Below are positions 14,107 to 46,504 of a stretch of DNA of 50,410 nt, piece after piece (positions within the stretch are counted from its first letter, which is position 1; each line of letters opens with the position of its first letter). The stretch lies in assembly GCA_017507005.1 (NCBI GenBank), contig JAFWBT010000033.1, forward strand, positions 1 through 50,410. The letters run 5' to 3'. Source of the DNA: Clostridia bacterium (lineage in GTDB: Bacteria; Bacillota; Clostridia; Christensenellales; Borkfalkiaceae). Both the position numbers and the translations under genes were made by a program. Under the pieces are notes generated by a model. It searched no databases. It worked only from the letters and a program-made list of their open reading frames with translations, and was not told where the DNA came from.

Positions 14107-14118
14107 CCGTTCTGCTAT

Positions 14119-18272: not shown

Positions 18273-18310
18273 TTTTGTCCTATCAAATTTTTATTTGATT
18301 TTTTTTGCCA

Positions 18311-23110: not shown

Positions 23111-23153
23111 ACATTTCCTCCTTGTATGTTTTATTTTTCATATTTTTGTTTTT

Positions 23154-23183: not shown

Positions 23184-23213
23184 TTTTAACCTTTATTTTT
23201 TTACCTTCTTTGC

Positions 23214-25397: not shown

Positions 25398-25410
25398 AGT
25401 TCGTCCTCCC

Positions 25411-28545: not shown

Positions 28546-28577
28546 CTAAATTTTTCTCCTTATTATAGTATTAGTGC

Positions 28578-29654: not shown

Positions 29655-29666
29655 ACTTTCACCTCC

Positions 29667-30956: not shown

Positions 30957-31030
30957 GTTAACTCCTCCTTCTTCGTTCCATTATTCCGAACGAAAGTATA
31001 CTTTTTTTCATAACCTTGTACCTTTTTTTT

Positions 31031-31060
31031 GCGAAGCCCCGCAAAGATACGGGGCTTCGC
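31031..31060 (-). other. Intercistronic GC-rich hairpin after the binding-protein gene
   Basis: GCGAAGCCCCG and CGGGGCTTCGC form a perfect 11-bp stem with an 8-nt loop. On the minus strand it is followed by AAAAAAAAA and no U-run. Its place, between solute-binding protein and permeases, is where stabilising stem-loops commonly raise binding-protein mRNA over permease mRNA. Confidence 0.6.
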
Positions 31061-31098
31061 CCTGTCTTCTGTAACGTAAAAACGATTACGTTTTCGTC

Positions 31099-32940
31099 TT
31101 ATTTAATTACTTCGTTGTGATCCCACTTATACTTTTCATAAATCCAGTGGCCACGGAAATATTCAGCCGCCGTCTTGCCCTTTCTGAATTCGTCAACGCT
31201 AATCGTTACGTAGGCCGAATCGCTGGTATATCTTGCCGAATACTTCTGGTTGTAGTTGATCAACGACATTTCGTTCTGCTGATAGAACGACGTTTTTGCA
31301 TAGCCGTAAACGACGTCTGCCTTTTCCGTAATGCTCAAAAGCGATCTACCAAACGAGGAAAGCTGCGCCTTATCTTCTTCGCTCATCGTATATTTAACGG
31401 CTTTCGTCGTGTTCGTAATCTTCGAGAATTCTGCCAAAGATTCGTCCGTGTAAATGAACTGGATGAAGTCTTTTGCGATGGGATATACTTCGCTCTTGAT
31501 TTCCTTACCGATAGCGCAGATGGTGTTATGCGTATCCATCAACGTATAGTAGTTTTCGCCTCTTGCAGCTTTTTCAGCTCTTTCTGCTGCTTCTGCTTCC
31601 GTTGCACAAGGCAAAGGCATGAACGCATATCTCTGTCTGTAATCCTGACCGGACGACTGCTGCATTGCATCAAGGATACCCGCAGCTTCCATTTCCCACC
31701 AAACACCTTCCAAGAGCATTGCGGGCATATCTTCCAAAGCGTCAAGACCACTACCGTCGATAAAGTGTTCCTGTGCCGTCGTCTGTTCGTAAGTGGGGTT
31801 TACTGCGCCGTCCGTATGATACCCTCTTTCCATAATCGTTTCGAGGAACTTGAACGCATAATATTTACCAGCCTGTCTGCCCAATTCGTAGCCGTTCGTC
31901 GCAGCGTCGATTGCTACGCTTTCCGTTACGATATTGCCGTCAGCGTCCGTCTTAACAGAACCGTCTTCGTTGAATACAACGAGGTTTTCAGCCGTGCCGT
32001 CGAACGAGAAGTTGAGCGCGCCCTGTTCCAAACCTTCGTGGTTTACCATCATTGCCTGCGTAAACCAGCTAAGGTAGCCTTCTCTATGTCTACCCGTCCA
32101 AGAAATGGGAGTACGCGTACCCGTGATTACGTCGCAAAGTGCGTAGAATTCTTCGTACGTCGTGGGAAGGCCGTCGTCTTCCGTGCCTTTCATACCGTCG
32201 GGACCAGCCGTTCTTGCCGTCGCGTCATCCGTGAAGCACGCGTCGATATCTTCTACCAAGTCTGCCTTATTATAGCCGTCTTTCAGATACCAACCATAAC
32301 CGTCGAAGTAGTACTTGTTATAAACGATACCTACGTAACCTGCATAGTGAGGCAAGCCGTAATAATCCGTTTCGCCGTCCTTGGTTACTTTATAGAATTC
32401 CTGCTGCTGTGCGGAAAGCTTGCTTTCCAACGTTACACCCGGTTCGTAAGGGTTTTCTTCCGTCATAACGTCCGTCATCTTTGCAAACGTTTTATCACTA
32501 CGAATCAACTGGTTGTAAGGAACCTGTTCTTCGAGCCAAATATCGTAATGCGTACCCGACGTTGCCATAGCAGACATCAAAGTTTTATCGTTCGTTACTT
32601 TGAAATCAACGCCGTCGTACGTTACGCCGTCTACGGTGAATTCTTTACCAGCGCGTACTTTCTTATAGCGCGAAATAGCCGCGTCCAACCATTCGTGACC
32701 ATAACCACCGTCAAAGTTGAATACGGTCAACGAGTAAGGGTTCGTAACGCCGGGAATTTCTTCTTCGCTCGTACCAACATCAATGCTCGTGTCGCCGCTC
32801 GTGTTGCCACCAACGCTCGTGTTGCCGCTGTTTCCGCCCGTGGACGTACCAGCCGCAGGTGCGCCGCCGCAAGCCGCCGTGCTAACGCACATCATACCTG
32901 CCAACAGCCATACCAACAATTTGTTTACTGTTTTCTTCAT
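31099..32940 (-). CDS. Extracellular sugar-binding lipoprotein of the ABC transporter
   Basis: 613 residues from ATG at 32940 (AGGAG 6 nt upstream). A signal peptide with TAAC lipobox (Cys24) and a G/S/T-rich spacer to about residue 55 are followed by a family-1-type solute-binding fold of larger than usual size. Visible parts are NPYSLTVFNFDGGYGHEW, TSGTHYDIWLEEQVPYNQL, YGLPHYAGYVGIVYNKYYF and LPTTYEEFYALCDVITG, the last typical of the hinge in oligosaccharide-binding proteins. It captures a glycan outside the membrane and delivers it to the two permeases encoded downstream. It lies after a palindromic element and a GGGGCGCGCCCC hairpin that separate it from the GH127 gene. Confidence 0.9.
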   Translation of the reverse strand: MKKTVNKLLVWLLAGMMCVSTAACGGAPAAGTSTGGNSGNTSVGGNTSGDTSIDVGTSEEEIPGVTNPYSLTVFNFDGGYGHEWLDAAISRYKKVRAGKEFTVDGVTYDGVDFKVTNDKTLMSAMATSGTHYDIWLEEQVPYNQLIRSDKTFAKMTDVMTEENPYEPGVTLESKLSAQQQEFYKVTKDGETDYYGLPHYAGYVGIVYNKYYFDGYGWYLKDGYNKADLVEDIDACFTDDATARTAGPDGMKGTEDDGLPTTYEEFYALCDVITGTRTPISWTGRHREGYLSWFTQAMMVNHEGLEQGALNFSFDGTAENLVVFNEDGSVKTDADGNIVTESVAIDAATNGYELGRQAGKYYAFKFLETIMERGYHTDGAVNPTYEQTTAQEHFIDGSGLDALEDMPAMLLEGVWWEMEAAGILDAMQQSSGQDYRQRYAFMPLPCATEAEAAERAEKAARGENYYTLMDTHNTICAIGKEIKSEVYPIAKDFIQFIYTDESLAEFSKITNTTKAVKYTMSEEDKAQLSSFGRSLLSITEKADVVYGYAKTSFYQQNEMSLINYNQKYSARYTSDSAYVTISVDEFRKGKTAAEYFRGHWIYEKYKWDHNEVIK

Positions 32941-32995
32941 AACATTCTCCTTGTTATAATATATTTTTTTTAATTTTTTCCTTTTAAGCATTTTT

Positions 32996-33031
32996 TTCAG
33001 TAATATTAATTACTGAAAAGGGGCGCGCCCC
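32996..33031 (-). other. Tandem hairpins between GH127 and the binding-protein gene
   Basis: GGGGCGCGCCCC (33020-33031) is preceded on the minus strand by eight A and followed by only four T, then by the perfect inverted repeat TTCAGTAAT-N4-ATTACTGAA (32996-33017). They lie 56-91 nt upstream of the binding-protein ATG. No separate promoter is convincing here. Likely effects are partial termination or protection of the downstream mRNA 5' end. Confidence 0.5.
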
Positions 33032-33062
33032 TTTTTTTTGCGAAATTTTTTATGTGATTTTC

Positions 33063-34856
33063 TTACTCTTTCGTATTAAACCACACCGTCATACGAGGTT
33101 TGTCCGATTTCCATTTCTTGCCGCAGGATTGATAGTCCGTCAACAACAATTCGTCGCCGTCTTCTAATTTGCAAACGATTCTTACCAGCTCGTCTTTTCC
33201 CTTAGGCTGTTCGACAGTGTACGTCAATTCGTTGCCTACGTTTACGGGTTTTTCCAACGTTCTGTCCGATTTCTGCTCGTCGGTAGCCAACGTCAACGCC
33301 CCGTAGGTGAACGCAATTTTTTCGTTTAAGTAGTGCGCTTTGAGCGGCGTTTGCATAGAAATGCTAATCTTGTCGCCATTTTTATACTCGCCTGCGAGCG
33401 TGTAATAACCCGTTTCTTTCACCGCCGCGCCGTTCACCGTCATATCCTCGCACCAAGCGGGCTTTCTAATCTTCAACGTGAGTTTAGCAGTGTCTTGACA
33501 GTTTACGGTGATTGTGCCGTTGCCGTTAGCGGGATATGCGCTTTCCAGCTGCAACGTTACGGTGTTGCCGTTAGCGTCTTGCACCTGCGCGCTACCGTTA
33601 AAGAGCATATTTACGTACACGCTATCCGCGCCCTGCATCACCGTCGTCATAGGCATCAAGGCGATACCGCACGCGCCGATTGCAACACAGCAACCGTTAT
33701 AGCCGCCGCTAGCGAACGGCATTTGTCCGCCGATACCTCTGCCGCGCTTGTTCATATACAACGGGCTGTAACTATCAAAGCATTTCGCTTCGTAGTAAAT
33801 CTTTTCCCACATATTCCACTGTTCGTTCAGCTCGGTGTTCAAGCTACCGTACAGGGTGTTATAGCCTGTCTGTTCGATACGGTCGATATATTTAGCCTCG
33901 CCCGTCAGCTGATACAAGCGTCTAAGCACGCGCATCCACGTCACCGCAACGCAGGTTTCCTGCATAATGTTTTCGTGGAATTCCGTTTGCATTACTGCGG
34001 AATTGTCAAACAATTCGTGCGTACAGCCCGCGCAGCCGATAATCGTGATATCCGTCTTTGCAACCGCCTCGATAAAACGGCTGGTCGCGTCGAGATATTT
34101 CTTTTCGCCCGTCACTTCGTAATATGCCACAAGACCTTCGTAGAAAGACATCATTTCATACGCTTTCGTTACGGGGTATTGATAGGGTGCGATTTCGTCC
34201 TGCAAAGCCAACTCTATCAAGTTGCAATCGGAACAGCCGCCTTTTGAAATGATATATTCTGCAAAGCGGAGATAGTCTTCCCTGCCCGTACGCTTATACA
34301 GCTCAATCGTCGGCTCTAATATCGTGCAGGAGTTTACACAGCCCCACCACTCGGACGTTGCCGTGATAGATTTTTGACCTTCGCCGTCACCGATTTTTGC
34401 CACGACGTAATCGAGGTGGCGACAGCAAGCGTTGATAATACGTTCTTTCAGCGCTTCGTCCTTACAGATTTCGTGATAGTACATCATACCGACGAGAACG
34501 TATTTTCTACACCACATATCCCAGCCGTTAAATTCCGTTTCCACGGTGTACGTCGAAAATCTGCCGTATTCGTCTTGGCGGTCTAACAGCGAAAGCACCG
34601 TTTCCGTCAAAATATCGTACAATTCTTCGTCTTTCGTCAGCGTATACACGAGCGCCGCGCCACGCATTTGTTTGCCGAAAAATTCACCGCGCCATCTCGC
34701 TTCGTCACTATCCTCTCGCGTCGTGAACACTTCCGTGTTCTTGCCCCACGTTACGCGGTCTTTCATTTGATTCTCGATAACGAAACGTATCGCTTTGCTC
34801 ATCAAGCCCTTTTCTTCTACTACACTGTCTACAATCAATTTCTTTATCTTATCCAT
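33063..34856 (-). CDS. GH127-family glycoside hydrolase (beta-L-arabinofuranosidase-like, DUF1680)
   Basis: 597 residues without signal peptide, so cytoplasmic. The (alpha/alpha)6 barrel shows WRGEFFGKQMRGAALVY and EWWGCVNSCTILEPTIELY. The Zn-thiolate site known from HypBA1 is conserved: Glu300 and Cys302 in MQETCVAV, and Cys389-Cys390 in NGCCVAIGA, the first Cys of that pair being the nucleophile. A C-terminal beta-sandwich follows. Family members cleave beta-L-arabinofuranosides, but related groups act on other sugars, so the substrate in this mannoside-rich locus is open. It is the third gene from the AraC-type promoter at 37185, 48 nt after the AGE epimerase gene, and has a weak ribosome binding site. 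Confidence 0.85.
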   Translation of the reverse strand: MDKIKKLIVDSVVEEKGLMSKAIRFVIENQMKDRVTWGKNTEVFTTREDSDEARWRGEFFGKQMRGAALVYTLTKDEELYDILTETVLSLLDRQDEYGRFSTYTVETEFNGWDMWCRKYVLVGMMYYHEICKDEALKERIINACCRHLDYVVAKIGDGEGQKSITATSEWWGCVNSCTILEPTIELYKRTGREDYLRFAEYIISKGGCSDCNLIELALQDEIAPYQYPVTKAYEMMSFYEGLVAYYEVTGEKKYLDATSRFIEAVAKTDITIIGCAGCTHELFDNSAVMQTEFHENIMQETCVAVTWMRVLRRLYQLTGEAKYIDRIEQTGYNTLYGSLNTELNEQWNMWEKIYYEAKCFDSYSPLYMNKRGRGIGGQMPFASGGYNGCCVAIGACGIALMPMTTVMQGADSVYVNMLFNGSAQVQDANGNTVTLQLESAYPANGNGTITVNCQDTAKLTLKIRKPAWCEDMTVNGAAVKETGYYTLAGEYKNGDKISISMQTPLKAHYLNEKIAFTYGALTLATDEQKSDRTLEKPVNVGNELTYTVEQPKGKDELVRIVCKLEDGDELLLTDYQSCGKKWKSDKPRMTVWFNTKE

Positions 34857-34904
34857 ACTTACACGCGCCTCGTTTTTGGATTCATTAAAGATTATAACAA
34901 CAAA

Positions 34905-36128
34905 TTACAGCAACGCAGGGAGCTTTTCGCCCTGTTCCATTGCTTTCAAAATCTGTTCGCACAGCATCAAGCATCTGGGAAGATGATACGGGCCTTTCCA
35001 CATCGAGCCTTTTTGCGTATGGGATACCGTACCGTCACGGTGCAGATAGCCGTACCACTCGCCGTTCTCTTTATCAGGGAAATGGGAGAAGATATATTCG
35101 TGCAGTTTGTCATACCACTGCTCGTAGATAGGATCGCCCGTTAAATGCAGAGCCGTCAGCGTTGCAATCAGGCATTCGTTATGTACCCACAACAGCTTCA
35201 TGTCGTGTTCCAGCTGTTCGCAAGGTCTGCCGTATGCGTCTACGAAATACACCACGCCGCCGTGTTCCTTGTCCCAGCCAAGCTCTAACGACCATTGCAG
35301 CATATTCAGCGCCTTGTCAAGCAACTCTTTATCCCCCGTTTCGTTCGCATAGTTCATCAAGAACCACGAATTTTCAATGGTGTGACCGGGGTTAATCGTT
35401 CTGCCCGTGGGATTGTCGAGGATACTGCCGTCCAAGCGCACGTTTTCCAGCACGCAATGAAGATCTTCCTTATAGTGCAAATTGAGCATATCTCCGATAA
35501 CGTCTTTAATCACTTTGTCGTAATACGCTTGATTTGCGGGGTTTGCACGGCGCAACGTCTGCGCGGAGCTGACCAAAACCATCGGATTTGCATTAGAGTG
35601 AAGACTGCGTACCGCCGCGTTTTCCTTGGGGGTAATCTTAAAGGGATCGGCGTTGCCGTCCTTGTAAATGCGATACATTAAATCGAAATATTTTTCTGCC
35701 AGCGCCAAATCCTCTTTGTTGCCGCGCAGAAGATAATATTCCGCAAAGCCGACGACAAGGAAACTCTCCGAGAAGAAATATCTACGTTTTCTAAGCGGCT
35801 GACCGTCCTGCGTGACGGTGAAATACATTCTGCCGTCCGTTTCGTCTATGCAATATTTTTTAATAAATTCTGCGCCGCTATCCGCCGCCTTGCCCCATTC
35901 CGCCTGCTCGCCGTACACGTTGCACAGCTTTGAAAACGTCCAAAGGCAACGGCCTTGAAACCATACGCTCTTATCGTCGTTGTACGATTTGCCGTATCTG
36001 TCGACGCTGGTGATAAAGCCGCCGTATTTTTCATCAATTAAATCGGATTTCAACCAAAAATCTACGACGTCGTTCATCAAATGTTCGTGATAAAAATTTT
36101 TCAACTGTGTAATCTTCGTCTTGTCCAT
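34905..36128 (-). CDS. AGE-family sugar epimerase/isomerase
   Basis: 407 residues from ATG at 36128 (GGAGG 8 nt upstream). The (alpha/alpha)6 barrel of N-acylglucosamine 2-epimerases is clear. Catalytic-site motifs are WFQGRCLWTFSKL (Arg60), NPGHTIENSW (His249, Glu252) and WKGPYHLPRC (His382, Arg385). The paired His residues carry out C2 epimerisation or aldose-ketose isomerisation in the family, for substrates such as GlcNAc/ManNAc, mannose/fructose, cellobiose or mannobiose. The KGPYHLPR end is closer to the N-acylglucosamine 2-epimerase group than to cellobiose 2-epimerases, but the assignment is tentative. It lies between the DUF4434 and GH127 genes in one operon. Confidence 0.85.
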   Translation of the reverse strand: MDKTKITQLKNFYHEHLMNDVVDFWLKSDLIDEKYGGFITSVDRYGKSYNDDKSVWFQGRCLWTFSKLCNVYGEQAEWGKAADSGAEFIKKYCIDETDGRMYFTVTQDGQPLRKRRYFFSESFLVVGFAEYYLLRGNKEDLALAEKYFDLMYRIYKDGNADPFKITPKENAAVRSLHSNANPMVLVSSAQTLRRANPANQAYYDKVIKDVIGDMLNLHYKEDLHCVLENVRLDGSILDNPTGRTINPGHTIENSWFLMNYANETGDKELLDKALNMLQWSLELGWDKEHGGVVYFVDAYGRPCEQLEHDMKLLWVHNECLIATLTALHLTGDPIYEQWYDKLHEYIFSHFPDKENGEWYGYLHRDGTVSHTQKGSMWKGPYHLPRCLMLCEQILKAMEQGEKLPALL

Positions 36129-36143
36129 GGTATGCCCCTCCAA

Positions 36144-37052
36144 TTATTTTTTGCCGTAATAGTTACAATAGAGCGTATGCAAATTCCGTGCGGACGGGAA
36201 AATGGATTGCGGGCTCAAGAAATGGGAAAATTCAAACGTGATACACTTTTCCACGTGGCGTTCCGCGATTTGGATTTTTCTTCTCAAAATATCAAACGGA
36301 ATCGGGAAATACATACATCTCACGTCTCTTTCAAAGGTTTCCACGTTTGCCCACAAACGAATATTGTGCGCGTCCGTTACTTTCTTGATTTCCGTAAGGT
36401 ATTTATCGTAATCGCAAAGTTGCGTCGTACCGTCTTGGAAAGCGCAGATATCGATATCCTTGCCGCAATCTTTCCAAATATTATTCCATACCTCTGCCGT
36501 AAGCTCGGGCGTCATGGAATCGGGATAGGTGTTGACACCTCTGAAAAACGGGCTGATAAACACTACTTTATCGGGTGCTGCATCCTTGCACATTGCCGCA
36601 AGTCCGCCCATCGTTTCCTTGATGTTGTAGATGTTGCTACCCGTTTCGTGAGGGATATACCAGCCCTTGAACGCAGGCATATCCTTATAGCGCGCCATCA
36701 CCTCTTCTATGTACAGCTTGTTCTGTTTCATCTCGCCGAGGAAATCCCCTGCATTCCAAGTAAGGTTGGAAATATACATACCCAAATACACCTGCATATT
36801 CCGTTTTTCCGCCTCTTGGAGAATAAAGCCCATAAAATCTTCGTTCTCTTCTTTGAGGGTGGGGAATATCTTGGAGGGATACAGGCATTTGTCGTAAAAT
36901 ACGCCGCGCATAATAATCAGCGTATCCATACCCACCGCCTTCATATAATCAAGGTCGGCTGCCCACTGCTCGTTCGTCCAGTTGGACGCAGGGATATCGT
37001 ACGTAATCTCGTCGATAAAAGTACCCGTAATCGGATAAGGATTTTTAAACAT
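36144..37052 (-). CDS. DUF4434-domain TIM-barrel protein
   Basis: 302 residues from ATG at 37052, preceded by GGGAG at 7 nt; an earlier in-frame Met (37091) lacks this. It opens with ITGTFIDEITYDIP and SNWTNEQWAADLDYMKAVGMD, the pattern of DUF4434 proteins. Barrel strands follow in MQVYLGMYIS, FKGWYIPHETGS with a candidate acid/base Glu, KVVFISPFFRG, DICAFQDGT and IRLWANVETFE. The family resembles glycoside hydrolases of clan A, but no activity is established to my knowledge. No signal peptide is present. It is the first gene after the AraC-type promoter at 37185-37213, leading a run of glycan genes. Confidence 0.8.
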   Translation of the reverse strand: MFKNPYPITGTFIDEITYDIPASNWTNEQWAADLDYMKAVGMDTLIIMRGVFYDKCLYPSKIFPTLKEENEDFMGFILQEAEKRNMQVYLGMYISNLTWNAGDFLGEMKQNKLYIEEVMARYKDMPAFKGWYIPHETGSNIYNIKETMGGLAAMCKDAAPDKVVFISPFFRGVNTYPDSMTPELTAEVWNNIWKDCGKDIDICAFQDGTTQLCDYDKYLTEIKKVTDAHNIRLWANVETFERDVRCMYFPIPFDILRRKIQIAERHVEKCITFEFSHFLSPQSIFPSARNLHTLYCNYYGKK

Positions 37053-37184
37053 TTTTTCACTCCCGCTTTGCGTCGTATTTTCACCACGCAACTCTTTCTA
37101 TCTTTCGTAAAAGTCGCTCGCCGCCTTAGAATATACGGAAAAGCATAAACGGACGCTATGTCACAGTATCCCTTTTACCTCAAT

Positions 37185-37213
37185 ATTATATCATATATTT
37201 TTTATCTTGTCAC
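37185..37213 (-). promoter_or_regulatory. AraC-type activated promoter of the DUF4434/AGE/GH127 operon
   Basis: GTGACA (37213-37208), 17-nt spacer, TATAAT (37190-37185). Transcription should start near 37178. A direct repeat of ATTGCA lies 9 nt upstream of the -35, exactly as at the promoter at 41177-41205. Confidence 0.8.
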
Positions 37214-37222
37214 TAGTTATAA

Positions 37223-37249
37223 ATTGCAAAAAAGTGCTGATTTATTGCA
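37223..37249. promoter_or_regulatory. Direct repeat ATTGCA-N15-ATTGCA (candidate AraC-family site)
   Basis: ATTGCA at 37223-37228 and 37244-37249, a 21-bp period (two helical turns), with TGCTG at the same place inside the spacer as in the copy at 41215-41241. It lies just upstream of a -35, the classical position for AraC/XylS activators. Confidence 0.65.
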
Positions 37250-37455
37250 TTTTTTCTTTCTCGGTGGTTTTTTTGCCTTTTTTTAACAACTATACTATTG
37301 TATATAGCGAAATTTACAACGAAAAAAATCCCTTAAATTTACAACTTTTGTTTGTGTTTTCTTGTTTTATTTATCCTCAAAAATCTCACCATTTTGCGCC
37401 TATTTTTCAGGCGAGTCCTCGTTTTTCGACATAATTTCGCCTAAAAAATATATAA
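37250..37455. other. Intergenic AT-rich stretch without a gene
   Basis: Between the AraC-type repeat and the terminator of murK. No open reading frame with a ribosome binding site or clear promoter is seen. Confidence 0.5.
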
Positions 37456-37485
37456 AAACGGAGCGCGACGCCGCGTGCTCCGTTT
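37456..37485 (-). terminator. Intrinsic terminator of the murQ-murK operon
   Basis: AAACGGAGC and GCTCCGTTT form the stem around a GC-rich loop, and the minus strand continues TTTTTATATATTTTTTAGG. It lies about 120 nt after the murK stop. Confidence 0.8.
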
Positions 37486-37512
37486 CTTCATACTCGTTTT
37501 TATGGTTATTTA

Positions 37513-37550
37513 TTGCCGTTTTTACCATTTGTTGCCATTTTTACCATTTT
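37513..37550. repeat. Two 19-bp tandem units downstream of murK
   Basis: TTGCCGTTTTTACCATTTG and TTGCCATTTTTACCATTTT are adjacent. A third, degenerate copy may follow (TTAGCGTTTGTCGCCGTTG). Role unknown. Confidence 0.6.
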
Positions 37551-37604
37551 TTAGCGTTTGTCGCCGTTGATCATTAGACGTTTTTCGCCGTTTAGTTTCG
37601 GCGT

Positions 37605-38522
37605 TTAGGAAAAATAGCTGTTTAAAAAGGTCTTTAAAAAGTCGTTATCCGTTTTGCCAAGCGCCCGTTTTAAAGCGCCGTAGATAACGGGATTTTCGGG
37701 GAATTTGAACGCAAACTCACGTTTTGCCCTTTCAGACAAATGCGCGAAAAAGATATCCCAGCGCTTGCTCAAACCGCCAAAAAGCGTGATTTCGCAAGGC
37801 GTTTTGCCATATATTTTTTGCACGCCGAAGAGCAGTTTTTCCAGCTCGCTTACACGGCGCTGTACGATTGTTTTTGCAACGGCGTCCCCCTGCTCGTACG
37901 CCGATAGAACAAAAGGTGCGAACGAGGCAACAAAAGCCTTTCCTTTTACGTATACGTCGCGGACGAGTTCTTTCACGGAAAACCCCGTCGCCTGTACTAT
38001 TTTTTCGGTGAGCAGCGTGGGCTCGCCTCTGCCGTCCGATTGCGATAACACGGCGTCGATTGCCTCACGACCTAAATCGTAACCGCTCAGCGAAGAATCA
38101 AGCATATATCCGCCGCCTCCCACGAGGAAATGTTCGCCGTTTTTGCGAAGATACCCGACGCTACCCGTGCCGATAATCACGATACAGCCGTCCTCATCAT
38201 ACGCCGCGTCGAGCGCGATTTGCACGTCGCTACAAATATCCACTTTTGCGATTTTATCTATCGCCGTTAACGCCGTCTTTAATTCGTCCGCACAGCCCGA
38301 AAACCCTATACCCGACAATCCCAACGACGCGCATACCATGTCCGCGTCGATCGGAACATTTTCCAAAAATGCGCCTACCATGTCCACGATCATTTTTTTT
38401 CTACCGATATCGTTTGGATTGGAACTGCCATACAATTTTCGAGCGATAACGACACCCGTTTCGTCCGTTACAACCAGCTCCGTTTTCGTGCCGCCGCCGT
38501 CCACGCCTACGTAATATTTCAT
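37605..38522 (-). CDS. murK: BadF/MurK-type N-acetylmuramate / N-acetylglucosamine kinase
   Basis: 305 residues. The ASKHA ATPase fold has phosphate-1 motif VGVDGGGTKTE (5-15), SNPNDIG, CIVIIGTGSVGYL (about 113-125) and GGGGYMLDSSLSGYDLG. The BadF/BadG group includes N-acetylglucosamine kinase and MurK of Clostridium acetobutylicum, which phosphorylates both MurNAc and GlcNAc. The 4-nt ATGA overlap with murQ upstream repeats the murQ-murK pairing known in clostridia and supports that role. It would supply MurNAc 6-phosphate to MurQ, or phosphorylate GlcNAc released from imported glycans. Last gene of the operon that begins with the GH-A-like enzyme. Confidence 0.82.
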   Translation of the reverse strand: MKYYVGVDGGGTKTELVVTDETGVVIARKLYGSSNPNDIGRKKMIVDMVGAFLENVPIDADMVCASLGLSGIGFSGCADELKTALTAIDKIAKVDICSDVQIALDAAYDEDGCIVIIGTGSVGYLRKNGEHFLVGGGGYMLDSSLSGYDLGREAIDAVLSQSDGRGEPTLLTEKIVQATGFSVKELVRDVYVKGKAFVASFAPFVLSAYEQGDAVAKTIVQRRVSELEKLLFGVQKIYGKTPCEITLFGGLSKRWDIFFAHLSERAKREFAFKFPENPVIYGALKRALGKTDNDFLKTFLNSYFS

Positions 38523-39325
38523 TTTTCGTAATCTCCTACGATTTCCACGATAGAACGACCTTTGGACAACTCCTCTTTCGCTTTTTCCACGCCTATACCC
38601 GTCAGCGTGTCAACGATTCTTGCAGCACGATCAAACAGCTTGATATTCGTCGGCGCGACGTTTACCATCAGGTTTTCAATCACTTTGCCCGTACGCACCA
38701 TCGCCACCGTCGAGAGCATATTCAACACCATTTTATGCGCCGTGCCTGCCTTTAAACGAGTAGAGCCTGTAACCACTTCCGCTCCCGTATCCGTTAAAAT
38801 CGCCACCTCTGCCACCTGTGAAATGCGGTTTTCGGGGTTTCCTGTCAACGCGACTGCGTGCGCGCCGACACTTTGGGCGTATTCGAGTGCGTCGTAGATA
38901 TACGCCGCGTCGCCTGAAACGGAAATACCGACCACCGTGTCTTTTGCGTTCACGCCGACCTCTTGCATATCCTTTACCCCGCTATTGCCGCTATCCTCTG
39001 CGCCTTCCGCCGCCTTGAATACTGCGTTTTTACCGCCTGCAATCACCCCGACGACCATGCCGTAAGGCACGCCGTACGTAGGCGGACATTCGCTTGCGTC
39101 CAATACCCCAAGTCTGCCCGACGTACCTGCACCGACGTAGATCAGTCTGCCACCTTTTTTAAAGGAATCCACGACGAGGTCAACCGCCTGCGCGATAGCA
39201 GGCAAAGCCTTTTCCACTGCGTACGCCACTGTCTTGTCCTCGTTGTTCATCAGCGTTACCGCCTCTAACGTCGTCATTTTATCCAAGCGCATGGATTTTG
39301 GATTTCTCTGCTCGGTATTCTTCAT
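38519..39325 (-). CDS. murQ: N-acetylmuramic acid 6-phosphate etherase
   Basis: 268 residues, somewhat shorter than the usual 295-305. The SIS domain carries the family signature YVGAGTSGRLGVLDASECPP with catalytic Glu79. FKAAEGAEDS (Glu107/Glu110) supplies the second acidic residue, and TGSTRLKAGTAHKMVLNMLS lies further on. The enzyme cleaves the D-lactyl ether of MurNAc 6-phosphate to GlcNAc 6-phosphate and lactate in the cytoplasm. It starts 4 nt after the stop of the GH-A-like gene and overlaps murK by 4 nt, so the three genes form one tight operon under the AraC-type promoter at 41177-41205. Confidence 0.94.
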   Translation of the reverse strand: MKNTEQRNPKSMRLDKMTTLEAVTLMNNEDKTVAYAVEKALPAIAQAVDLVVDSFKKGGRLIYVGAGTSGRLGVLDASECPPTYGVPYGMVVGVIAGGKNAVFKAAEGAEDSGNSGVKDMQEVGVNAKDTVVGISVSGDAAYIYDALEYAQSVGAHAVALTGNPENRISQVAEVAILTDTGAEVVTGSTRLKAGTAHKMVLNMLSTVAMVRTGKVIENLMVNVAPTNIKLFDRAARIVDTLTGIGVEKAKEELSKGRSIVEIVGDYEK

Positions 39326-39329
39326 TGTA

Positions 39330-41123
39330 TCACCTAAAATATTCCTCTATCTCAAACAGTTCCGTTTGATTTTCTTCCATATCAAAAACGAACTCCGTTC
39401 CCTCGTATTCTTTTCCGTCCGTGAAGGCGCGAATTTTACACGCCGTCGGCATAGATAATTGCACCTTGCCTTGCTTTGCCGCCGTCAGGCAAACAAAACG
39501 GGAATTTGCGTATACGATATTGCCTTCACTAAATACATGGGTATCTGCTTTGCGTAAAATCGCAGCAATTTCTGCAGCGGAAAAAAGTCCGTTTTTTTCG
39601 ATTTTTTCGCTGTTAGAAAGGAGCAGATTTCCCTTTACGCCGTATTTTGTCGGGGCAATATATAACAGCGTTTTATAGTGTGTTTTCGCCCATTCCTCGT
39701 CGCAAGAATGGTACATATCGTACGACACACCGACAAAACCCAACTCGACGAGTTGCAAGCGACTCAATTCGTCGTAATATTCTTCTGAAATACCGTAACT
39801 CGCCTTTTCGTCCATAATCACGGCAAGCTCGTTCTCTTTTTTCGTCTTGCCGTTATAGTTACGGTACAGCTCATTCGCATGCGTCATAAATTGCATAACC
39901 GCAGGGGTGTCGTACCAGCCACCCCACATATCAAACCACCAAAACGCATACCCTGCCGCAAGCACTTTCCCAAACGTACGAAGGAGCACCCAAAGAGTTT
40001 CTTTTTCCGTCGGTAAGCCCATAAACACGGGGTTTTTAAAATAATTCACCGTGCGCTCCCCTTCCATCAGTTCAGGATTCGTTTCATACAACGGCAACGT
40101 TTTATGCGTACGGATATCCGCCTCCATAAACCACAGCTTATTCGCGCGCGCGCAAGAATCCATTACACCGTGATAAATCCAGTCTTTCGCCGTTTTACGC
40201 CCGTCGATATAGGCAAACGGCGATGCAAAAAAATCGATATTCTTATCGTGTAACAACAGCGAAACACCACTATGCCCATATTCACAGGACAACTGACCAA
40301 AATAGCCGTAAAACACACCGACGAGCATATCCTCGTTCGTAAGCTCTTTTACGTACGCACACAACTCTTGAATCGTCCGAGCAAAGCCCTCGTTAAAAAA
40401 CTGCTCGTAATCGAGCAAATTACGGTATTTCCCCTCGTCTATCACCTTGTCGCCATGACGAGCCGCCAACTCAAATGAGGTAGGCATGTACGCCTTGAAC
40501 GCATTTTTATACTTGTTTTCTATATATTTTTGGTAGGCTTTTTGTGCGGGCAAAGAATAATCGAAACTTCCCGTTGCATTGCGCAAAGCTAACCACTCCT
40601 CCGTCTGCATTCCCGCCACCTGAATGGCTATCACGTTCTCGGAAAATTCAAACGTTTTGATATATTCGCACAGCTTTTTTAAAAATATCTTGGCGTCTGC
40701 TTTCCACTTTTCAGAAAATGCCGACTGCATGTATTGCCCTTTCACGCCGTCGCTTAAAACGACCAATTCATTTGGATTTTCTGCACGCCACCAGCGCGGT
40801 GCATTGAGGTTGACACGCAGCATGACGTACGCTTTTTTCGCGCCTTCCCCTACTATCTTTTTAATACTGTTATAAACGGGCGTAAAATCGTAATTTTCGC
40901 GCGATTTCCATACGTGTTCGCCAAACGTATGCACGCCGGAATTCTCGTTAATCGATCCATCGCCCATATACACGCAAGCGCAGAACAAATCATAACCAGC
41001 CGTTTGAAAATCGGCGTAGCGCGCATTCTCCTCTAAATAGGTCATATACGCCGCCGTTTCTACACGCTTGCCGTTGACTTCTATCGTAAGAGAATTATCC
41101 GTTTTTACAATTTTTGCTTTCAT
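39330..41123 (-). CDS. Cytoplasmic GH-A-clan-like glycoside hydrolase
   Basis: 597 residues, no signal peptide. The N-terminal TIM barrel has LRVNLNAPRWWRAENP, NVIAIQVAGMQTEEW (candidate acid/base Glu) and ANKLWFMEADIRTH (candidate nucleophile Glu), an order like that of GH42/GH35 beta-galactosidases. The part from about residue 430 (ELAVIMDEKASYGISEEYYD) resembles the trimerisation domain of GH42, and a beta-rich end follows. I cannot name the family with certainty. GGAG lies 8 nt before the ATG. It is first in the operon with murQ and murK, so a role in releasing amino sugars from imported fragments is suggested by position only. Confidence 0.72.
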   Translation of the reverse strand: MKAKIVKTDNSLTIEVNGKRVETAAYMTYLEENARYADFQTAGYDLFCACVYMGDGSINENSGVHTFGEHVWKSRENYDFTPVYNSIKKIVGEGAKKAYVMLRVNLNAPRWWRAENPNELVVLSDGVKGQYMQSAFSEKWKADAKIFLKKLCEYIKTFEFSENVIAIQVAGMQTEEWLALRNATGSFDYSLPAQKAYQKYIENKYKNAFKAYMPTSFELAARHGDKVIDEGKYRNLLDYEQFFNEGFARTIQELCAYVKELTNEDMLVGVFYGYFGQLSCEYGHSGVSLLLHDKNIDFFASPFAYIDGRKTAKDWIYHGVMDSCARANKLWFMEADIRTHKTLPLYETNPELMEGERTVNYFKNPVFMGLPTEKETLWVLLRTFGKVLAAGYAFWWFDMWGGWYDTPAVMQFMTHANELYRNYNGKTKKENELAVIMDEKASYGISEEYYDELSRLQLVELGFVGVSYDMYHSCDEEWAKTHYKTLLYIAPTKYGVKGNLLLSNSEKIEKNGLFSAAEIAAILRKADTHVFSEGNIVYANSRFVCLTAAKQGKVQLSMPTACKIRAFTDGKEYEGTEFVFDMEENQTELFEIEEYFR

Positions 41124-41176
41124 TGCAAGCTCTCCAAAATCAGGGCGCTTTTAACCCATTTCCATCTTTCGACTGT

Positions 41177-41205
41177 ATTATAGCATAATAGGCATTTTTT
41201 GTCAT
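41177..41205 (-). promoter_or_regulatory. AraC-type activated promoter of the GH-murQ-murK operon
   Basis: ATGACA (41205-41200), 17-nt spacer, TATAAT (41182-41177). Transcription should start near 41170. The ATTGCA direct repeat begins 9 nt upstream of the -35. Confidence 0.8.
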
Positions 41206-41214
41206 TACTCTAAA

Positions 41215-41241
41215 ATTGCAAATATATGCTGTAAAATTGCA
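41215..41241. promoter_or_regulatory. Direct repeat ATTGCA-N15-ATTGCA (candidate AraC-family site)
   Basis: ATTGCA at 41215-41220 and 41236-41241, 21-bp period, with internal TGCTG as in the copy at 37223-37249. It lies in the divergent region between the GH-murQ-murK operon and the AraC gene. Confidence 0.65.
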
Positions 41242-41403: not shown

Positions 41404-41432
41404 TTGACAAGCAAAAAAAACGGTGTTATAAT
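41404..41432 (+). promoter_or_regulatory. Promoter of the AraC operon
   Basis: TTGACA (41404-41409), 17-nt spacer, TATAAT (41427-41432): perfect consensus. The expected transcription start coincides with the A of the ATG at 41439, predicting a leaderless mRNA. Confidence 0.85.
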
Positions 41433-41438: not shown

Positions 41439-42356
41439 ATGGAACAGCAAACGAAAAAAATATATCCCTACCTTGGCGTTGTCACGGAAACCAAAGGTCC
41501 AAAGCAGGCAGGTTCGTTCGATACGTCTTCCCCGTGGAAGAGCGCAAACACCGCTTTTTATTGGATGAATTTTGAGTTTCCTTTTTACCATGGGCATACG
41601 GACTGGGAGCTGTTTATCGTGCTCAACGATAGCATATTGCATCGTATCAACGGCGAAGAGCATCTCATATCCGAAGGCACGGCTTGTTTAATCGGGCCGA
41701 AGCATTATCACGCCACTTTTTTCCCGAATCGCGTGAAAAATCAGTTTCAGGGCGTTACCTTCCCCGTACGCGCGGCATATCTTGAAAAGCTGTTGGGCTT
41801 ATATTCCCCCACGCTTTTCGACGAATTAGCCTCGACGTCGCAGCCGTTATATTTTACCCTCTCGCGCATTTTGATGGAAAAATATACGAATATGCTGCTG
41901 GAAATACAAACCTACGAGGGGCAAAGTACGCCGTACACCGAACAGCAATGTAATATCATTTTTTCAGATATTTTGTTGAAATTCCTTGAACAGCGGCAGG
42001 AAAATTCGAGTATTCCCGACGTGTTAAAGCCGTTGATTCAACACCTCAACAATCCTTTAATCACAGCGCAACAGATTAAAATGGCGCAAGCGGAGTTGCC
42101 GTATAGCTATCCACAGCTCACCCGTATATTCAAAAAATATATGCATTGCACGATTACGCAATACGTCAACCGTTCAAAGCTGCAATACGCGCAAGAATTG
42201 CTGACGAGAACGGATATGTCGTTGACGGAGATTACAAGCGAATTAAACTTTGAATCGACGAGTCATTTCCATAATCTTTTTAAAAAGCATTTTAATATGA
42301 CTCCCACCGAGTATAGAAAGCTCACTTCGCTGACCTCTAACGGCAACAACGAATAA
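41439..42356 (+). CDS. AraC-family transcriptional regulator (local glycan regulator)
   Basis: 305 residues. The N-terminal cupin sensing domain has FPFYHGHTDWELFIVLNDS and LISEGTACLIGPKHYHATFF (about 48-105). The C-terminal double helix-turn-helix includes YPQLTRIFKKYMHCTITQYV and MSLTEITSELNFESTSHFHNLF (about 225-285), ending in FNMTPTEYRKL. No ribosome binding site precedes the ATG, and the promoter predicts a leaderless transcript. It heads a plus-strand operon with a DUF4432 protein, a cupin isomerase and a GHL6-like hydrolase. Matching 21-bp-period repeats at two nearby operon promoters make it the likely activator of the whole locus in response to a sugar bound by the cupin. Confidence 0.9.
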   Translation: MEQQTKKIYPYLGVVTETKGPKQAGSFDTSSPWKSANTAFYWMNFEFPFYHGHTDWELFIVLNDSILHRINGEEHLISEGTACLIGPKHYHATFFPNRVKNQFQGVTFPVRAAYLEKLLGLYSPTLFDELASTSQPLYFTLSRILMEKYTNMLLEIQTYEGQSTPYTEQQCNIIFSDILLKFLEQRQENSSIPDVLKPLIQHLNNPLITAQQIKMAQAELPYSYPQLTRIFKKYMHCTITQYVNRSKLQYAQELLTRTDMSLTEITSELNFESTSHFHNLFKKHFNMTPTEYRKLTSLTSNGNNE

Positions 42357-42380
42357 AACAAATTGAGTAAGGATTGTATT

Positions 42381-43265
42381 ATGGACGAAAGAAAACTGGG
42401 AAACAGCGCGCAAATACAGCGCGTGCAGGACGTCGTGATTGAGGACAAGCGTTGCGTTTTGGTGCAAAACGGCGCGTTGGAGCTGTTGTTCAATAAAGAC
42501 AACGCCCTCGATATCGTTTGGGCGCGCTATAAAGGCGTCAATATTTCTTTCCTTAGCAAAAATGGACTGAATGACGGAGCGAGAGATTTTACGGGGAATT
42601 TTGAGGGCGGTTTCCTCTATACCTGCGGCATGGATAACGTGTCCTCTTGCGTAGAAAATAAACCCGTACATGGTAGCCTTCATTATAAAAAGGTCGATAC
42701 CCTGTACGCGTTGAAAAAAGGCGACGTTATCTGCGTTTGTGGCGAAGTGCGCGAGTGTGCGTTGTTTGGAAAAAACCTGCTTATGACTCGTTGTTACGAA
42801 GTATCAAAGGACACGCTGACGATTCACGATACGCTGCAAAACCTCGATTATAAAGACGTGGATTACGTTTTGTTATACCATATCAATTACGGCTATCCGT
42901 TCTTGGACGAGGGCTTGCGTATAGATATCCCTGCGATTAAGAGCGAGCCTTTAACAGAGATTGCAAAAAAGCGGGAAGCGGAAAAATTCACCATCACCGC
43001 GCCGATAGACGGCGGCGACGAGGATGTATATTATCACACCCTTTCCAAAGGCTGTGTGCGGCTGGAAAACCCGAACGTTGGCGTTGCGGTGGAAATGACG
43101 TACGACACCAACGATTTTCCCGTCACCCTGCAATGGAAAAGTATGATTAGCGGCGATTACGCGCTAGGCATCGAGCCATCGCTGACACGCTTTGACGATT
43201 TTAAAATGAGAACCTTGAAAGCGAAAGAACAAAAAGCTTATCAAATAAAAATTAAATTTCAATAA
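42381..43265 (+). CDS. DUF4432-family aldose-1-epimerase-like protein
   Basis: 294 residues from ATG at 42381 (AAGGA 7 nt upstream). The beta-sandwich of galactose-mutarotase-like proteins is suggested by RCVLVQNGALELLFN, DIVWARYKGVNISFLS, GFLYTCGMDNVSSC (the DUF4432 loop), PVHGSLHY, LLYHINYGYPFLDEG and a late LGIEPS. Likely role is sugar binding or anomer conversion in the cytoplasm, as in other DUF4432/mutarotase-fold proteins of sugar operons. No activity is proven. It lies 24 nt after the AraC gene and 15 nt before the cupin gene, so all are co-transcribed. Confidence 0.8.
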   Translation: MDERKLGNSAQIQRVQDVVIEDKRCVLVQNGALELLFNKDNALDIVWARYKGVNISFLSKNGLNDGARDFTGNFEGGFLYTCGMDNVSSCVENKPVHGSLHYKKVDTLYALKKGDVICVCGEVRECALFGKNLLMTRCYEVSKDTLTIHDTLQNLDYKDVDYVLLYHINYGYPFLDEGLRIDIPAIKSEPLTEIAKKREAEKFTITAPIDGGDEDVYYHTLSKGCVRLENPNVGVAVEMTYDTNDFPVTLQWKSMISGDYALGIEPSLTRFDDFKMRTLKAKEQKAYQIKIKFQ

Positions 43266-43280
43266 GGAGAATATAGGAAG

Positions 43281-44471
43281 ATGAAATTGAGCGAAAAATT
43301 GTTCAAAGAAAGCAACGGCATTTTGCGTTTGAAGCCCACTTGGGTACCCAGAGCGTTCTGTCGCCCCGGTAAGCGTATTAAGCTGCATCCCGACGATTAT
43401 TATGTTTTAGGTTTGGAAAGAGGCGGCATTGACGAACGCTGGTTCGCCTCCACGACTTGGGCGGAAAACGGACCCGCTACCCCTGACGATGAAGGGCTTT
43501 CTTACGTTGTTTCCAAAGACGGCAGCGAGCAGATGTTGCTGCGTGATATGGTAGACGAATTGAAAGACGAAATTATCGGCGATTTGTGGGATAAATATCA
43601 TAAATGGCCTATGTTCTCGAAATTTTTCGACAACGCAGGTCCTCTTCCTCATCATATTCATCACCGTGACGAACACGCAAAACGCGTTGGTGCGGAAGGC
43701 AAGCCTGAAATGTATTTCTTCCCCGCGCAAGTGAACAACCACGGCGGCGAATTCCCCTTTACGTTCTTTGGCTTGAACCCCGAATGCACGAAGGAAGAAA
43801 TTAAAAAATGCCTTGAAAACTTCCATAAGGGCGACAACCACCTGCTTGATTATTCGCAGGCGTATAAGATTGAATTGGATACGGGCTGGGACGTTCCCCC
43901 TGGCGTGTTGCACGCCCCCGCGAGCCTTTGCACGTACGAGCCGCAGTTTGCCTCCGACGTATACGCAATGTATCAATCGGTGCTCTACGGTGGGCAATGC
44001 GTAGGCGAAGATTTGCTGTGGAAAAACTGTCCCGAAGAAGAAAAAGGCAATTTCGATTATCTTATGGACGTTATCGATTGGGATTTGAACGTAGACCCCG
44101 ATTTCAAGAAAAACCGTTTTATGCGCCCTATCGTCGACCACGAGGACGCGGCGCATAAGGAAGAATGGGTATGCTATAAGAGCAAGCTCGCTTGCGCGAA
44201 GCGTCTTACCGTATATCCCGGTCAGAAAGTGACCATCAAAGACGGCGCGGCGTACGGTATGATTATGTTGCAAGGCCACGGCACATTCGGCGGTCATCCC
44301 ATTGAAACGCCTTCGTTGATTCGTTACGGTCAGCTCACGCACGACGAATATTTTGTCAGCGCGAAAGCAGCAAAAGAGGGCGTCGTGATTGAAAACACGA
44401 GCGCGAGCGACCCTATCGTTATGCTGAAACACTTTGCGGAAAATCCCGATTTGGAGAAATTGAGCAAATGA
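43281..44471 (+). CDS. Mannose-6-phosphate-isomerase-like cupin protein
   Basis: 396 residues. A double-cupin fold is indicated by LPHHIHHRDEHAK and EMYFFPA (about 128-155), which supply the His-His-Glu metal ligands of type I phosphomannose isomerases. TGWDVPPGVLHAPASLCTYEPQ follows (about 203-224), with the Pro-Gly-x-x-His motif of cupins. It is longer than the small ManA forms and diverges from them, so an aldose-ketose isomerase for mannose or a related sugar is inferred and not proven. AAGGAG precedes the start. The stop overlaps the next ATG by 4 nt, showing translational coupling with the GHL6-like hydrolase. Confidence 0.75.
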   Translation: MKLSEKLFKESNGILRLKPTWVPRAFCRPGKRIKLHPDDYYVLGLERGGIDERWFASTTWAENGPATPDDEGLSYVVSKDGSEQMLLRDMVDELKDEIIGDLWDKYHKWPMFSKFFDNAGPLPHHIHHRDEHAKRVGAEGKPEMYFFPAQVNNHGGEFPFTFFGLNPECTKEEIKKCLENFHKGDNHLLDYSQAYKIELDTGWDVPPGVLHAPASLCTYEPQFASDVYAMYQSVLYGGQCVGEDLLWKNCPEEEKGNFDYLMDVIDWDLNVDPDFKKNRFMRPIVDHEDAAHKEEWVCYKSKLACAKRLTVYPGQKVTIKDGAAYGMIMLQGHGTFGGHPIETPSLIRYGQLTHDEYFVSAKAAKEGVVIENTSASDPIVMLKHFAENPDLEKLSK

Positions 44472-46504
44472 AAAAGTGGTATGAAGGCGTATACCGTCGA
44501 CAGTTGACGGATATGCATATTCACGATTGCGACGAGCGGTTTTTGTCGAAGTTTAACGCGGATGAATATTACGAAAATCTCGTCCGCGCAAAAATTCAAA
44601 GCCCGATGATTTATCTGCAATCGCATACGGGGCTTTGCAATTACCCCACCGAGACGGCGCGCACGCATAAGCGATTTTTAACAGGCGAAAACGAGATTAA
44701 AAAGCTGATTAAAAAATGCAAAGACGGCGGCATGAAGGTCGTTGGGTATTACAGCCTGATTTTTAATAACTGGGCGATTGAGGCGCACCCCGAATGGGAA
44801 ATGGTGCATCAAAACGGCAAAACGTGGCGCGACCAAGGTCAGCGCTACGGGCTGTGCTGTCCTAATAACGAGGAATACCGCGCATTCGTTCAGGTGCAGA
44901 TTGACGAGCTGGCGGGAGAATTTAAAAACCTCGACGGGTTGTTCTTCGATATGCCGTATTGGGAAGTGCCCTGCTATTGTGAATCCTGTCGTAAAAATTT
45001 CAAAAAAGAAACGGGCAACGATTTGCCCGAAAACATGGATTTTGAGGATAAAAACTGGCTGCGCTACGTAAAGGCGCGTCAGGATTGGATGGTCGATTTC
45101 GTGCGGTTTGTCAAGGCGTACACGAACAAAGTGATGCCCGAGGTGACGGTGGAATTTAACTACGCCGCCGTGATTGGTTGCGATTGGCTTGGCGGCTCGA
45201 CAGAGGGCATTAACGCCGAGTGCGAGTTTACGGGCGGCGACCTTTACGGGGATTTGTATTCCCATTCCTTTGCTAGTAAATATTACTACGGCGTTACCAA
45301 CAATCAGCCGTTTGAGTATATGACTTGCCGTTGCGATAAATCCTTGCGCGAGCATACGATTACCAAGCCGCAAAAGACGCTAGAACGCGAAATCCTTTTG
45401 ACGGCGGCGCATCACGGCGCATCCCTTATCATTGACGCTGTCGATCCTATCGGCAGTTTGGATGCGCGCGTATACGAACGCGTTGGCAACGCTTTTGCCC
45501 GTCAAATCCCCTTCGAGCCGTACATGGGTAGGGGGAAACTGTATGCGGAAGTCGCTGTGTATTTCGACAGCAAGACGATGTATACCAAAAACGGCAGTGA
45601 TAAATACAACCGCACCTGCGCTATCGGCGCGGTGAAAAAGCTGATTGAAGCGCACGTACCAACGGCGGTGATAGCAAACGGCGGTCTTACTGATTTGGAT
45701 AAATACCAAATGATTGTTGCGCCCTGCTTGCAAGATTTTGACAACGACGAGCCGTTGAAATTTATCGATTACGTGAAAAACGGCGGCACGCTGTATCTTT
45801 CGGGGAAATCCGATTCGCGGCTTATGAAAGAATTTTTCGGCGCGAACGTCGTTGGGGAAACCTACGGCAACAGCCCGTATAAATGGGTGCAATTCGGCGC
45901 GCGCGTATACGTTTCGCCCAAAGCAGGCTACGAGGCTGAATTTGGGGAATTTAACGAAACCTATCCCCTACCACTCACCTATTATCTGCCCCTTTTGGAA
46001 GGCGCGCAGGGCGAGGTGAAAGCGACGATTGCGCTGCCTTATGACGACCCCGATAACAATCATCATTTTGCGTCGATTCATTCCTGCCCACCTTGGCAGA
46101 ATACCGAATACCCTGCGTGGATAGAACGCAGCTACGGCAAGGGTAAGGTGATTTGGTGTGCGGCGGAATTGGAATACGACGATAGAGAAGCGTTTAAAAA
46201 CATCTTCAAGGGTATGGTGGAAAGAAATATCACGAAAAAGTACGATTGCAAGGCAGGAAAAGCAATCGAATGCGTGGTGTTTGAGGACGTGAACGCGACC
46301 ATGGTATCCCTGTGCGACCTGCAATACGACGAAACGAAGACGAGCGGCAATATCCTTTTCACCTTTAAGACGGATAAAAAGCCCGTATCTTTTAAAAATA
46401 TTGCATTGAACGCAGACATGGTATACACCTACGACGAAAAAACGGGTGTTTGCAGTGCCACACTTTCGGTGGATGATTTCGCTATGTTCGCCATTGAATA
46501 TTGA
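44468..46504 (+). CDS. GHL6-like glycoside hydrolase with beta-galactosidase-trimerisation-type domain
   Basis: 678 residues, cytoplasmic. The N-terminal TIM barrel contains VGYYSLIFNNWAIEAHPEW, a Pro-Asn-Asn segment near CCPNNEEYR, and LDGLFFDMPYW followed by the pair CYCESC (about 175-181). This is the hallmark of hypothetical glycosyl hydrolase 6 (PF14871) and related fucosidase-like barrels. From about 365 to 470 a Rossmann-like domain (AEVAVYFDSK, DKYQMIVAPCLQDFDND, GGTLYLSG) matches the GH42 trimerisation type, and a beta-sandwich ends the protein. The substrate is unknown. Last gene of the AraC operon, closed by a strong terminator. Confidence 0.78.
   Translation: MKKWYEGVYRRQLTDMHIHDCDERFLSKFNADEYYENLVRAKIQSPMIYLQSHTGLCNYPTETARTHKRFLTGENEIKKLIKKCKDGGMKVVGYYSLIFNNWAIEAHPEWEMVHQNGKTWRDQGQRYGLCCPNNEEYRAFVQVQIDELAGEFKNLDGLFFDMPYWEVPCYCESCRKNFKKETGNDLPENMDFEDKNWLRYVKARQDWMVDFVRFVKAYTNKVMPEVTVEFNYAAVIGCDWLGGSTEGINAECEFTGGDLYGDLYSHSFASKYYYGVTNNQPFEYMTCRCDKSLREHTITKPQKTLEREILLTAAHHGASLIIDAVDPIGSLDARVYERVGNAFARQIPFEPYMGRGKLYAEVAVYFDSKTMYTKNGSDKYNRTCAIGAVKKLIEAHVPTAVIANGGLTDLDKYQMIVAPCLQDFDNDEPLKFIDYVKNGGTLYLSGKSDSRLMKEFFGANVVGETYGNSPYKWVQFGARVYVSPKAGYEAEFGEFNETYPLPLTYYLPLLEGAQGEVKATIALPYDDPDNNHHFASIHSCPPWQNTEYPAWIERSYGKGKVIWCAAELEYDDREAFKNIFKGMVERNITKKYDCKAGKAIECVVFEDVNATMVSLCDLQYDETKTSGNILFTFKTDKKPVSFKNIALNADMVYTYDEKTGVCSATLSVDDFAMFAIEY

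Follow-up and report, generated by a model that had tools for sequence, protein, structure and literature searches.

Tandem half-sites with a 21-bp period at two glycan-operon promoters of a Clostridia bacterium, and the AraC-family regulator that probably reads them

At araI of Escherichia coli, AraC acts at sites with a 21-bp spacing that overlap the -35 element. The site of XylS, a member of the same family, is given in the available portions of two papers as TGCA-N6-GGNTA-N6-TGCA-N6-GGNTA (box A TGCA, box B GGNTA), adjoining the -35 element of the Pm promoter (PMC4514859, PMC5481539). The motifs predicted in Bacillales, Bacteroides, and Enterococcus for rhamnose regulators of this family are direct repeats with a periodicity of 21 bp, each group having its own motif (PMC3870299, available text). 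Most prokaryotic regulators are said to require inverted repeats, binding to direct repeats being largely confined to the AraC family (PMC9723621, available text). Here we describe two tandem direct-repeat sites, A and B, each in front of the promoter of a glycan operon, and a gene for an AraC-family regulator in a Clostridia bacterium of the family Borkfalkiaceae (assembly GCA_017507005.1, contig JAFWBT010000033.1; the 50,410-nucleotide stretch analyzed is called the window). Judging from the sequences, the protein encoded at 41439-42356 very probably reads both tandem sites and activates a glycan regulon, with three to six detected promoters in each carrier of the genus.

Both promoters are on the minus strand, where they share the consensus TGCAAT-N15-TGCAAT-N9-(A/G)TGACA-N17-TATAAT. 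Site A with its promoter, read from 37249 to 37185, is TGCAATAAATCAGCA-CTTTTT-TGCAATTTATAACTA-GTGACA-17-TATAAT, and site B, read from 41241 to 41177, is TGCAATTTTACAGCA-TATATT-TGCAATTTTAGAGTA-ATGACA-17-TATAAT. A previous sequence-only reading of this DNA had reported repeats at 37223-37249 and 41215-41241, each with an internal TGCTG, and both were found there as exact repeats; its distances (21-bp period, 9 nt, and 17 nt) were also correct on re-measurement. Its formula, ATTGCA-N15-ATTGCA, is right in spacing and wrong in orientation, because it gives the other strand, and our working reading is TGCAAT-N15-TGCAAT since the promoters are on the minus strand. The true repeat unit is a 15-bp half-site, longer than the hexamers of that reading, and the second half-site abuts the -35 element. 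Box B is CAGCA in both distal half-sites; in the proximal half-sites it is GAGTA or AACTA. At both sites, the -35 element begins with A or G in place of the consensus T. Tandem half-sites with a period of about 21 bp that adjoin the -35 element of the target, the arrangement by which AraC/XylS-family sites are recognized, are thus present at both promoters.

The bare hexamer pair says little by itself. It had 14 matches in the window at up to two mismatches (5.4 expected; largest shuffle 12), and in the window's own genome (G000, completeness 71%) it had 29 matches at up to one mismatch against 25 for the backward-read control. Three of these matches are exact, the third being on contig C7 with no promoter behind it. 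Because the pair is near the genome background at one mismatch, it was dropped as evidence. With up to three mismatches allowed, the extended motif TGCAATNNNWNRGCRNWTWTTTGCAATTW had three matches in the own genome (1.56 Mb) and four in the relative G023, with none for the backward control; the concern raised with the earlier reading, that the repeat might occur at random across the genome, therefore does not hold for the extended site, which is specific. When a weight matrix built from 22 sites outside the window was applied, the two window sites ranked top (scores in Table 1), the third-best position scored 4.6 bits, and 20 first-order Markov windows, scored only at positions with GCA in one of the boxes, reached at most 10.2 bits. 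The proximal box B and the -35 element were absent from the pattern used to collect the training sites. A separate half-site and promoter pattern was made from the window sites, which score perfectly there by design; its matches on contigs C33 and C6 of the own genome (two and three mismatches) have no second TGCAAT 21 bp upstream and were not counted.

The distance to the promoter is fixed in a set of 24 sites (22 from the genus and 2 from outside it), collected with a search pattern from which the -35 and -10 elements had been left out. Matches in G015 and G071, with neither an ortholog of the regulator nor a promoter, were removed before this count, and a match in G044 was never in the set. 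A promoter with up to two mismatches stands at the exact offset in 20 of the 24 sites, as compared with 8 of 12,126 nearby control positions, and in 22 when 1 nt of play is allowed. The -10 element is consensus with the TG extension in 23 of the 24.

The site accompanies the regulator. Within the genus, 5 of the 57 genomes encode the regulator (G000 itself and four others, with 63-68% identity), and in the family it or an ortholog (60-68% identity) was found in 7 of 398 genomes; the orthologs scored at least 399.9 bits, while the next relative scored 159 bits with 35% identity. In a family-wide scan with a threshold of up to one mismatch, the motif was present in all seven ortholog carriers and in 1 of the 391 other genomes (G071), with none for the backward control. 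When the two genomes that had shaped the pattern were excluded, the figures were 5/5 and 1/391 (hypergeometric p 7.6e-11, relatedness uncorrected). At up to two mismatches, the five carriers of the genus have 22 sites (G000, 3; G062, 5; G069, 4; G073, 6; G023, 4), and the other 52 genomes have 2 (G015 and G071), with 1 for the backward control. A promoter-anchored pattern matched in G000, G023, and, once, G044 among 61 genomes. Two genomes of another genus (G356 and G361) were retrieved by the motif alone, and in both an ortholog of the regulator (60 and 64% identity) lies divergently beside the site, while the best full-length relative in the other 13 genomes of that genus has 33% identity. 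The araC-adjacent site is present in all seven carriers. The link of the adjacent araC gene to the sites, which the sequence-only reading had drawn, is supported by this co-occurrence (7/7 vs. 1/391) and by the prediction borne out twice in the second genus; the search of relatives that it had called for found the site conserved where the same locus is present. On plasmids, no relative of the regulator was found at E <= 1e-30.

Among 21-bp repeats near promoters at 23 loci of distant AraC relatives (about 25-35% identity), no TGCAAT site was found. At four loci (L138, L140, L020, and L025), a different A-rich repeat with a 21-bp period lies before an (A/G)(A/G)GACA -35 element and a TATAAT-like -10 element, beside distant AraC-type genes; these may belong to a paralogous regulator that uses the same layout. 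A lookalike site with four mismatches lies between an AraC-type gene and a GH2 gene at L136.

The regulator has a C-terminal double helix-turn-helix region of the AraC type: HTH_18 covers residues 219-294, and solved AraC-type domains match. For the residues before 219, where the sensor or dimerization domain of this family would be expected, no Pfam family matched, and one weak match was obtained to the solved protein 4mv2 (residues 31-95, E 0.00069). TTGACA-17-TATAAT lies exactly 6 nt ahead of the araC ATG in all seven carriers, and such a layout was found in 4 of 200 open reading frames (ORFs; at least 250 codons, the first ATG taken as the start) across 16 loci, all four being araC. Transcription begins about 7 nt past a -10 element; with the consensus promoter just 6 nt from the ATG, the regulator mRNA is predicted to be leaderless. 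This promoter has no tandem site.

The targets of the 24 sites, taken as the first gene of at least 80 codons behind each, encode DUF4434 proteins (6), the 597-aa protein (3), GH2-type proteins (3), giant surface-type proteins (4), ADP-ribosylglycohydrolases (3), a putative binding protein (2), and, once each, a BspA-type repeat protein, a ROK protein, and a xylose-isomerase-like protein. Two of the four giants match DUF4838 in Pfam, one is 53% identical to one of these, and one carries DUF4886 and Big_2. The third site of the own genome (contig C27) precedes a giant surface-type protein, homologs of which lie behind sites in G069 (53%) and G073 (40%). The arrangement of the window (site, 597-aa gene, MurQ gene, kinase gene, site, DUF4434 gene) was found again in G062 and G073, while in G023 the counterparts of operon 2 are spread over three contigs, each of which carries one or more sites: the araC-linked site leads straight to DUF4434 and GH127 genes, and other homologs (about 27-54%) are on C40 and C9. 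Gene content is thus kept while the arrangement changes. The prediction of one regulon covering both glycan operons was supported by these tests, except that its scope was drawn too narrowly, as the regulon is wider, with a third promoter on another contig. The ADP-ribosylglycohydrolase-type genes stand behind sites far from the glycan cluster in G062, G069, and G073 (L092 426-1994, L096 13468-15033, and L101 10646-12214); they are 82-84% identical, and the two that were scanned matched in Pfam.

From these data we infer binding by the regulator, dependence on a ligand, activation rather than repression, and co-expression of the targets. Each monomer would read one 15-bp half-site, made of box A (TGCA), 6 bp, and a variable box B. 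With the paired half-sites pointing the same way and offset by 21 bp (two helical turns), both monomers would sit on the same face of the helix, and the one nearer the promoter would abut the -35 element. In the presence of the ligand, the protein would recruit RNA polymerase to both window promoters and to at least one on another contig, and the 3.5-kb operon, the operon of about 23 kb, and the giant surface-type protein would respond jointly, so that the entire set is probably switched on by a single regulator. The regulator itself would be expressed from its site-free promoter, probably as a leaderless mRNA.

A number of observations weigh against this reading. Two genomes without an ortholog, G071 (one mismatch) and G015 (two mismatches), have motif matches, neither with a promoter behind it, and the promoter-pattern match of G044 (two mismatches) has neither a distal half-site nor a close ortholog. 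At the fixed offset, the promoter is poor at the G073 C17 site (three mismatches) and missing at the G069 C7 site, which may be an assembly end because it lies 112 bp from the contig start and duplicates the G069 C2 site. The training sites of the weight matrix were collected with a pattern derived partly from the window sites (plus C27 and G023), and the family ortholog survey scored five candidates per genome. In addition, G062 has a second AraC-type gene (276 aa, with a PocR domain) next to the regulator, and in G069 and G073 a gene of identical length occupies that place.

This neighbor, together with the several AraC-type genes of the carriers (8 matches in G000 and 15 in G023), makes it conceivable that the sites are regulatory but read by another protein, such as an AraC paralog or a response regulator, and that araC merely travels with the cluster. 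We consider this unlikely: in G000 and G023, the regulator has no such 276-aa neighbor, and only the window's regulator, among those tested, tracks the motif over the 398 genomes and the scattered tree of rpoB (below), the motif-tracking survey having covered this regulator. That direct-repeat binding is largely an AraC-family trait, according to the available text of PMC9723621, also favors an AraC-type reader. A different objection concerns the direction of control. The proximal half-site abuts the -35 element, and promoters with a consensus TG-extended -10, as in 23 of the 24 sites, could work unaided, so that the protein might bind beside the -35 element and block RNA polymerase until the sugar is present. 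Half-sites upstream of and abutting the -35 element are in a position that favors activation, however, and the pair resembles activator layouts such as that of XylS, while the first base of the -35 element is off-consensus in both window sites; we judge repression to be improbable. That the window sites are alike through copying with flanking DNA, or by chance, with no regulatory role, might be suggested by their distance of 4 kb and by the near-background frequency of the bare hexamer pair, but their internal and flanking bases differ, the promoter offset is fixed, and in each of the five carriers of the genus the motif is present on several contigs, ahead of different genes. This explanation was already disfavored by the extended-motif counts, the conservation, the varied targets, and the promoter offset, and we give it hardly any weight. 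Activation of both operons by the adjacent AraC-family protein is the explanation that we prefer.

The distribution of the carriers does not follow shared descent alone. On an rpoB tree of 26 of 30 chosen genomes (G069, G010, and G348 gave no match, and a fragment from G073 was left out), five carriers are scattered and five changes are required, all forced by well-supported branches and no fewer than with shuffled labels; common ancestry alone is therefore insufficient to account for the site-regulator link. For the regulator, identity is 59-66% across the two genera and 63-67% when G000 is compared with the other carriers of its genus; for rpoB, it falls from 91-93% among three carriers of the genus to 69-72% across the genera. 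This contrast makes transfer of the regulator between lineages likely, the alternative being repeated loss; the regulator tree separates the two genera with modest support (63/98). It is possible, though we advance it tentatively and with some doubt, that the regulator and its scattered sites form one patchily distributed regulon in two genera of uncultured gut Clostridia, gained and lost jointly, and that the unit that spreads is a regulatory circuit, not just an operon. The regulator gene would then retain its consensus promoter and leaderless start in every carrier, and a 65-bp block (two half-sites, -35, and -10) would have come to serve different surface and sugar genes in different hosts, for example those for the giant DUF4838 proteins, the ADP-ribosylglycohydrolase, or the BspA-type protein followed by esterase genes.

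The features of the window are listed in Table 1. The MurQ assignment is above the curated cut-off, and no family match was obtained for the 597-aa protein of operon 1 or the putative binding protein of operon 2. Operon 2 would be a single transcript of about 23 kb, its likely end being set by a hairpin and a promoter-like site at 14106. Its genes encode, in order, DUF4434, GlcNAc 2-epimerase-like, GH127, the putative binding protein, two ABC permeases, a 1044-aa protein, DUF4838, a 1599-aa Big_2 protein, a GH2-type enzyme, and a metallophosphoesterase. The GH127, GH2, MurQ, epimerase, and amino-sugar-type kinase assignments point to complex glycans as a possible substrate. A hairpin at 31031-31060 (13-bp stem, z -6.8), between the gene for the putative binding protein and those for the permeases, lacks a U-tract on the operon strand and may adjust the relative amounts of mRNA.

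The regulator gene is divergent from operon 1, and the gene set downstream of it, ending with the GHL6 protein, is followed by a strong terminator-like hairpin. Its order is interrupted in G062 and G073 by the extra 276-aa gene, which lies on the opposite strand between the regulator and DUF4432 genes (G062, L090 677-1507; G069, L093 17072-17902; G073, L099 12186-13016); the G062 copy, the only one scanned, is the PocR-domain AraC-type regulator mentioned above. The 396-aa protein (43281-44471) has no Pfam or NCBIfam match and a weak match to mannosephosphate isomerase 1zx5. It is 96-97% identical in G023, G062, and G073, where neighboring genes are 66-82% identical, and since codons differ at 34-37% of identical residues, its conservation looks like constraint, not recent exchange.

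Table 1. Positions of the regulator, sites, promoters, and operons in the window
Feature	Position (strand)	Content	Evidence
AraC-family regulator, proposed binder of both sites	41439..42356 (+)	305 aa	HTH_18 5.7e-22, HTH_AraC 8.1e-15; motif co-occurrence
Regulator-gene consensus promoter	41404..41432 (+)	TTGACA, 17 nt, TATAAT; 6 nt before ATG	same layout in 7/7 orthologs
Site B	41206..41241 (-)	half-sites TGCAATTTTACAGCA (41241-41227) and TGCAATTTTAGAGTA (41220-41206), 21-bp period	60.9 bits, matrix trained outside the window
Site A	37214..37249 (-)	half-sites TGCAATAAATCAGCA (37249-37235) and TGCAATTTATAACTA (37228-37214), 21-bp period	44.1 bits, matrix trained outside the window
Operon 1 promoter	41177..41205 (-)	ATGACA (41205-41200), 17 nt, TG-extended TATAAT (41182-41177)
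Operon 2 promoter	37185..37213 (-)	GTGACA (37213-37208), 17 nt, TG-extended TATAAT (37190-37185)
Operon 1	37605..41123 (-)	597-aa protein, MurNAc-6-phosphate etherase (MurQ), BadF/NagK-type kinase	same trio behind a site in G062 and G073
Likely operon 1 terminator	37440..37495 (-)	hairpin, U-rich tail	-22.8 kcal/mol, z -4.8
Operon 2, ~23 kb	14198..37091 (-)	starts with DUF4434, ends with metallophosphoesterase	
Likely operon 2 end	14106..14148 (-)	hairpin 14148-14120, then separate promoter-like site from 14106	z -2.8; 2/200 shuffles fold as well
Genes 3' of regulator	42363..46504 (+)	DUF4432, 396-aa isomerase-like protein, GHL6 protein	gene order conserved in G023, G062, and G073

The window motif was not found reported in the open-access literature among the matches listed, and a text match for TTGCAATTT together with AraC gave nothing on topic among the matches listed. 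For uncultured Clostridia of herbivore guts, the system offers a regulon that can be put to the test, with an exactly delimited promoter block, and it points to unlinked genes that are expected to answer to one signal. With their almost perfect co-occurrence over 398 genomes, regulator and site also form a clean recognition pair for studying how AraC-family proteins read direct repeats.

As at Pm with XylS of the Pseudomonas TOL plasmid, insofar as the available text describes it, each site consists of a pair of direct half-sites of 15 bp, in which box A is TGCA and 6 bp separate the boxes; a further 6 bp separate the half-sites, for a period of 21 bp. Unlike at Pm, box B of the window sites is CAGCA, GAGTA, or AACTA, so that GGNTA is absent, and the host, the target genes, and presumably the ligand differ; we therefore suggest that the window sites share the XylS/Pm layout and do not class them as XylS sites. 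With the rhamnose regulators of the AraC type, again as far as the available text goes, they have in common a sugar regulon and direct repeats with 21-bp periodicity, a likeness drawn at the level of layout, and from the site of AraC at araI in E. coli they differ in half-site sequence. The kind of control, 21-bp direct repeats read by the AraC family, is well known, and the motif with its regulon is a new example of it.

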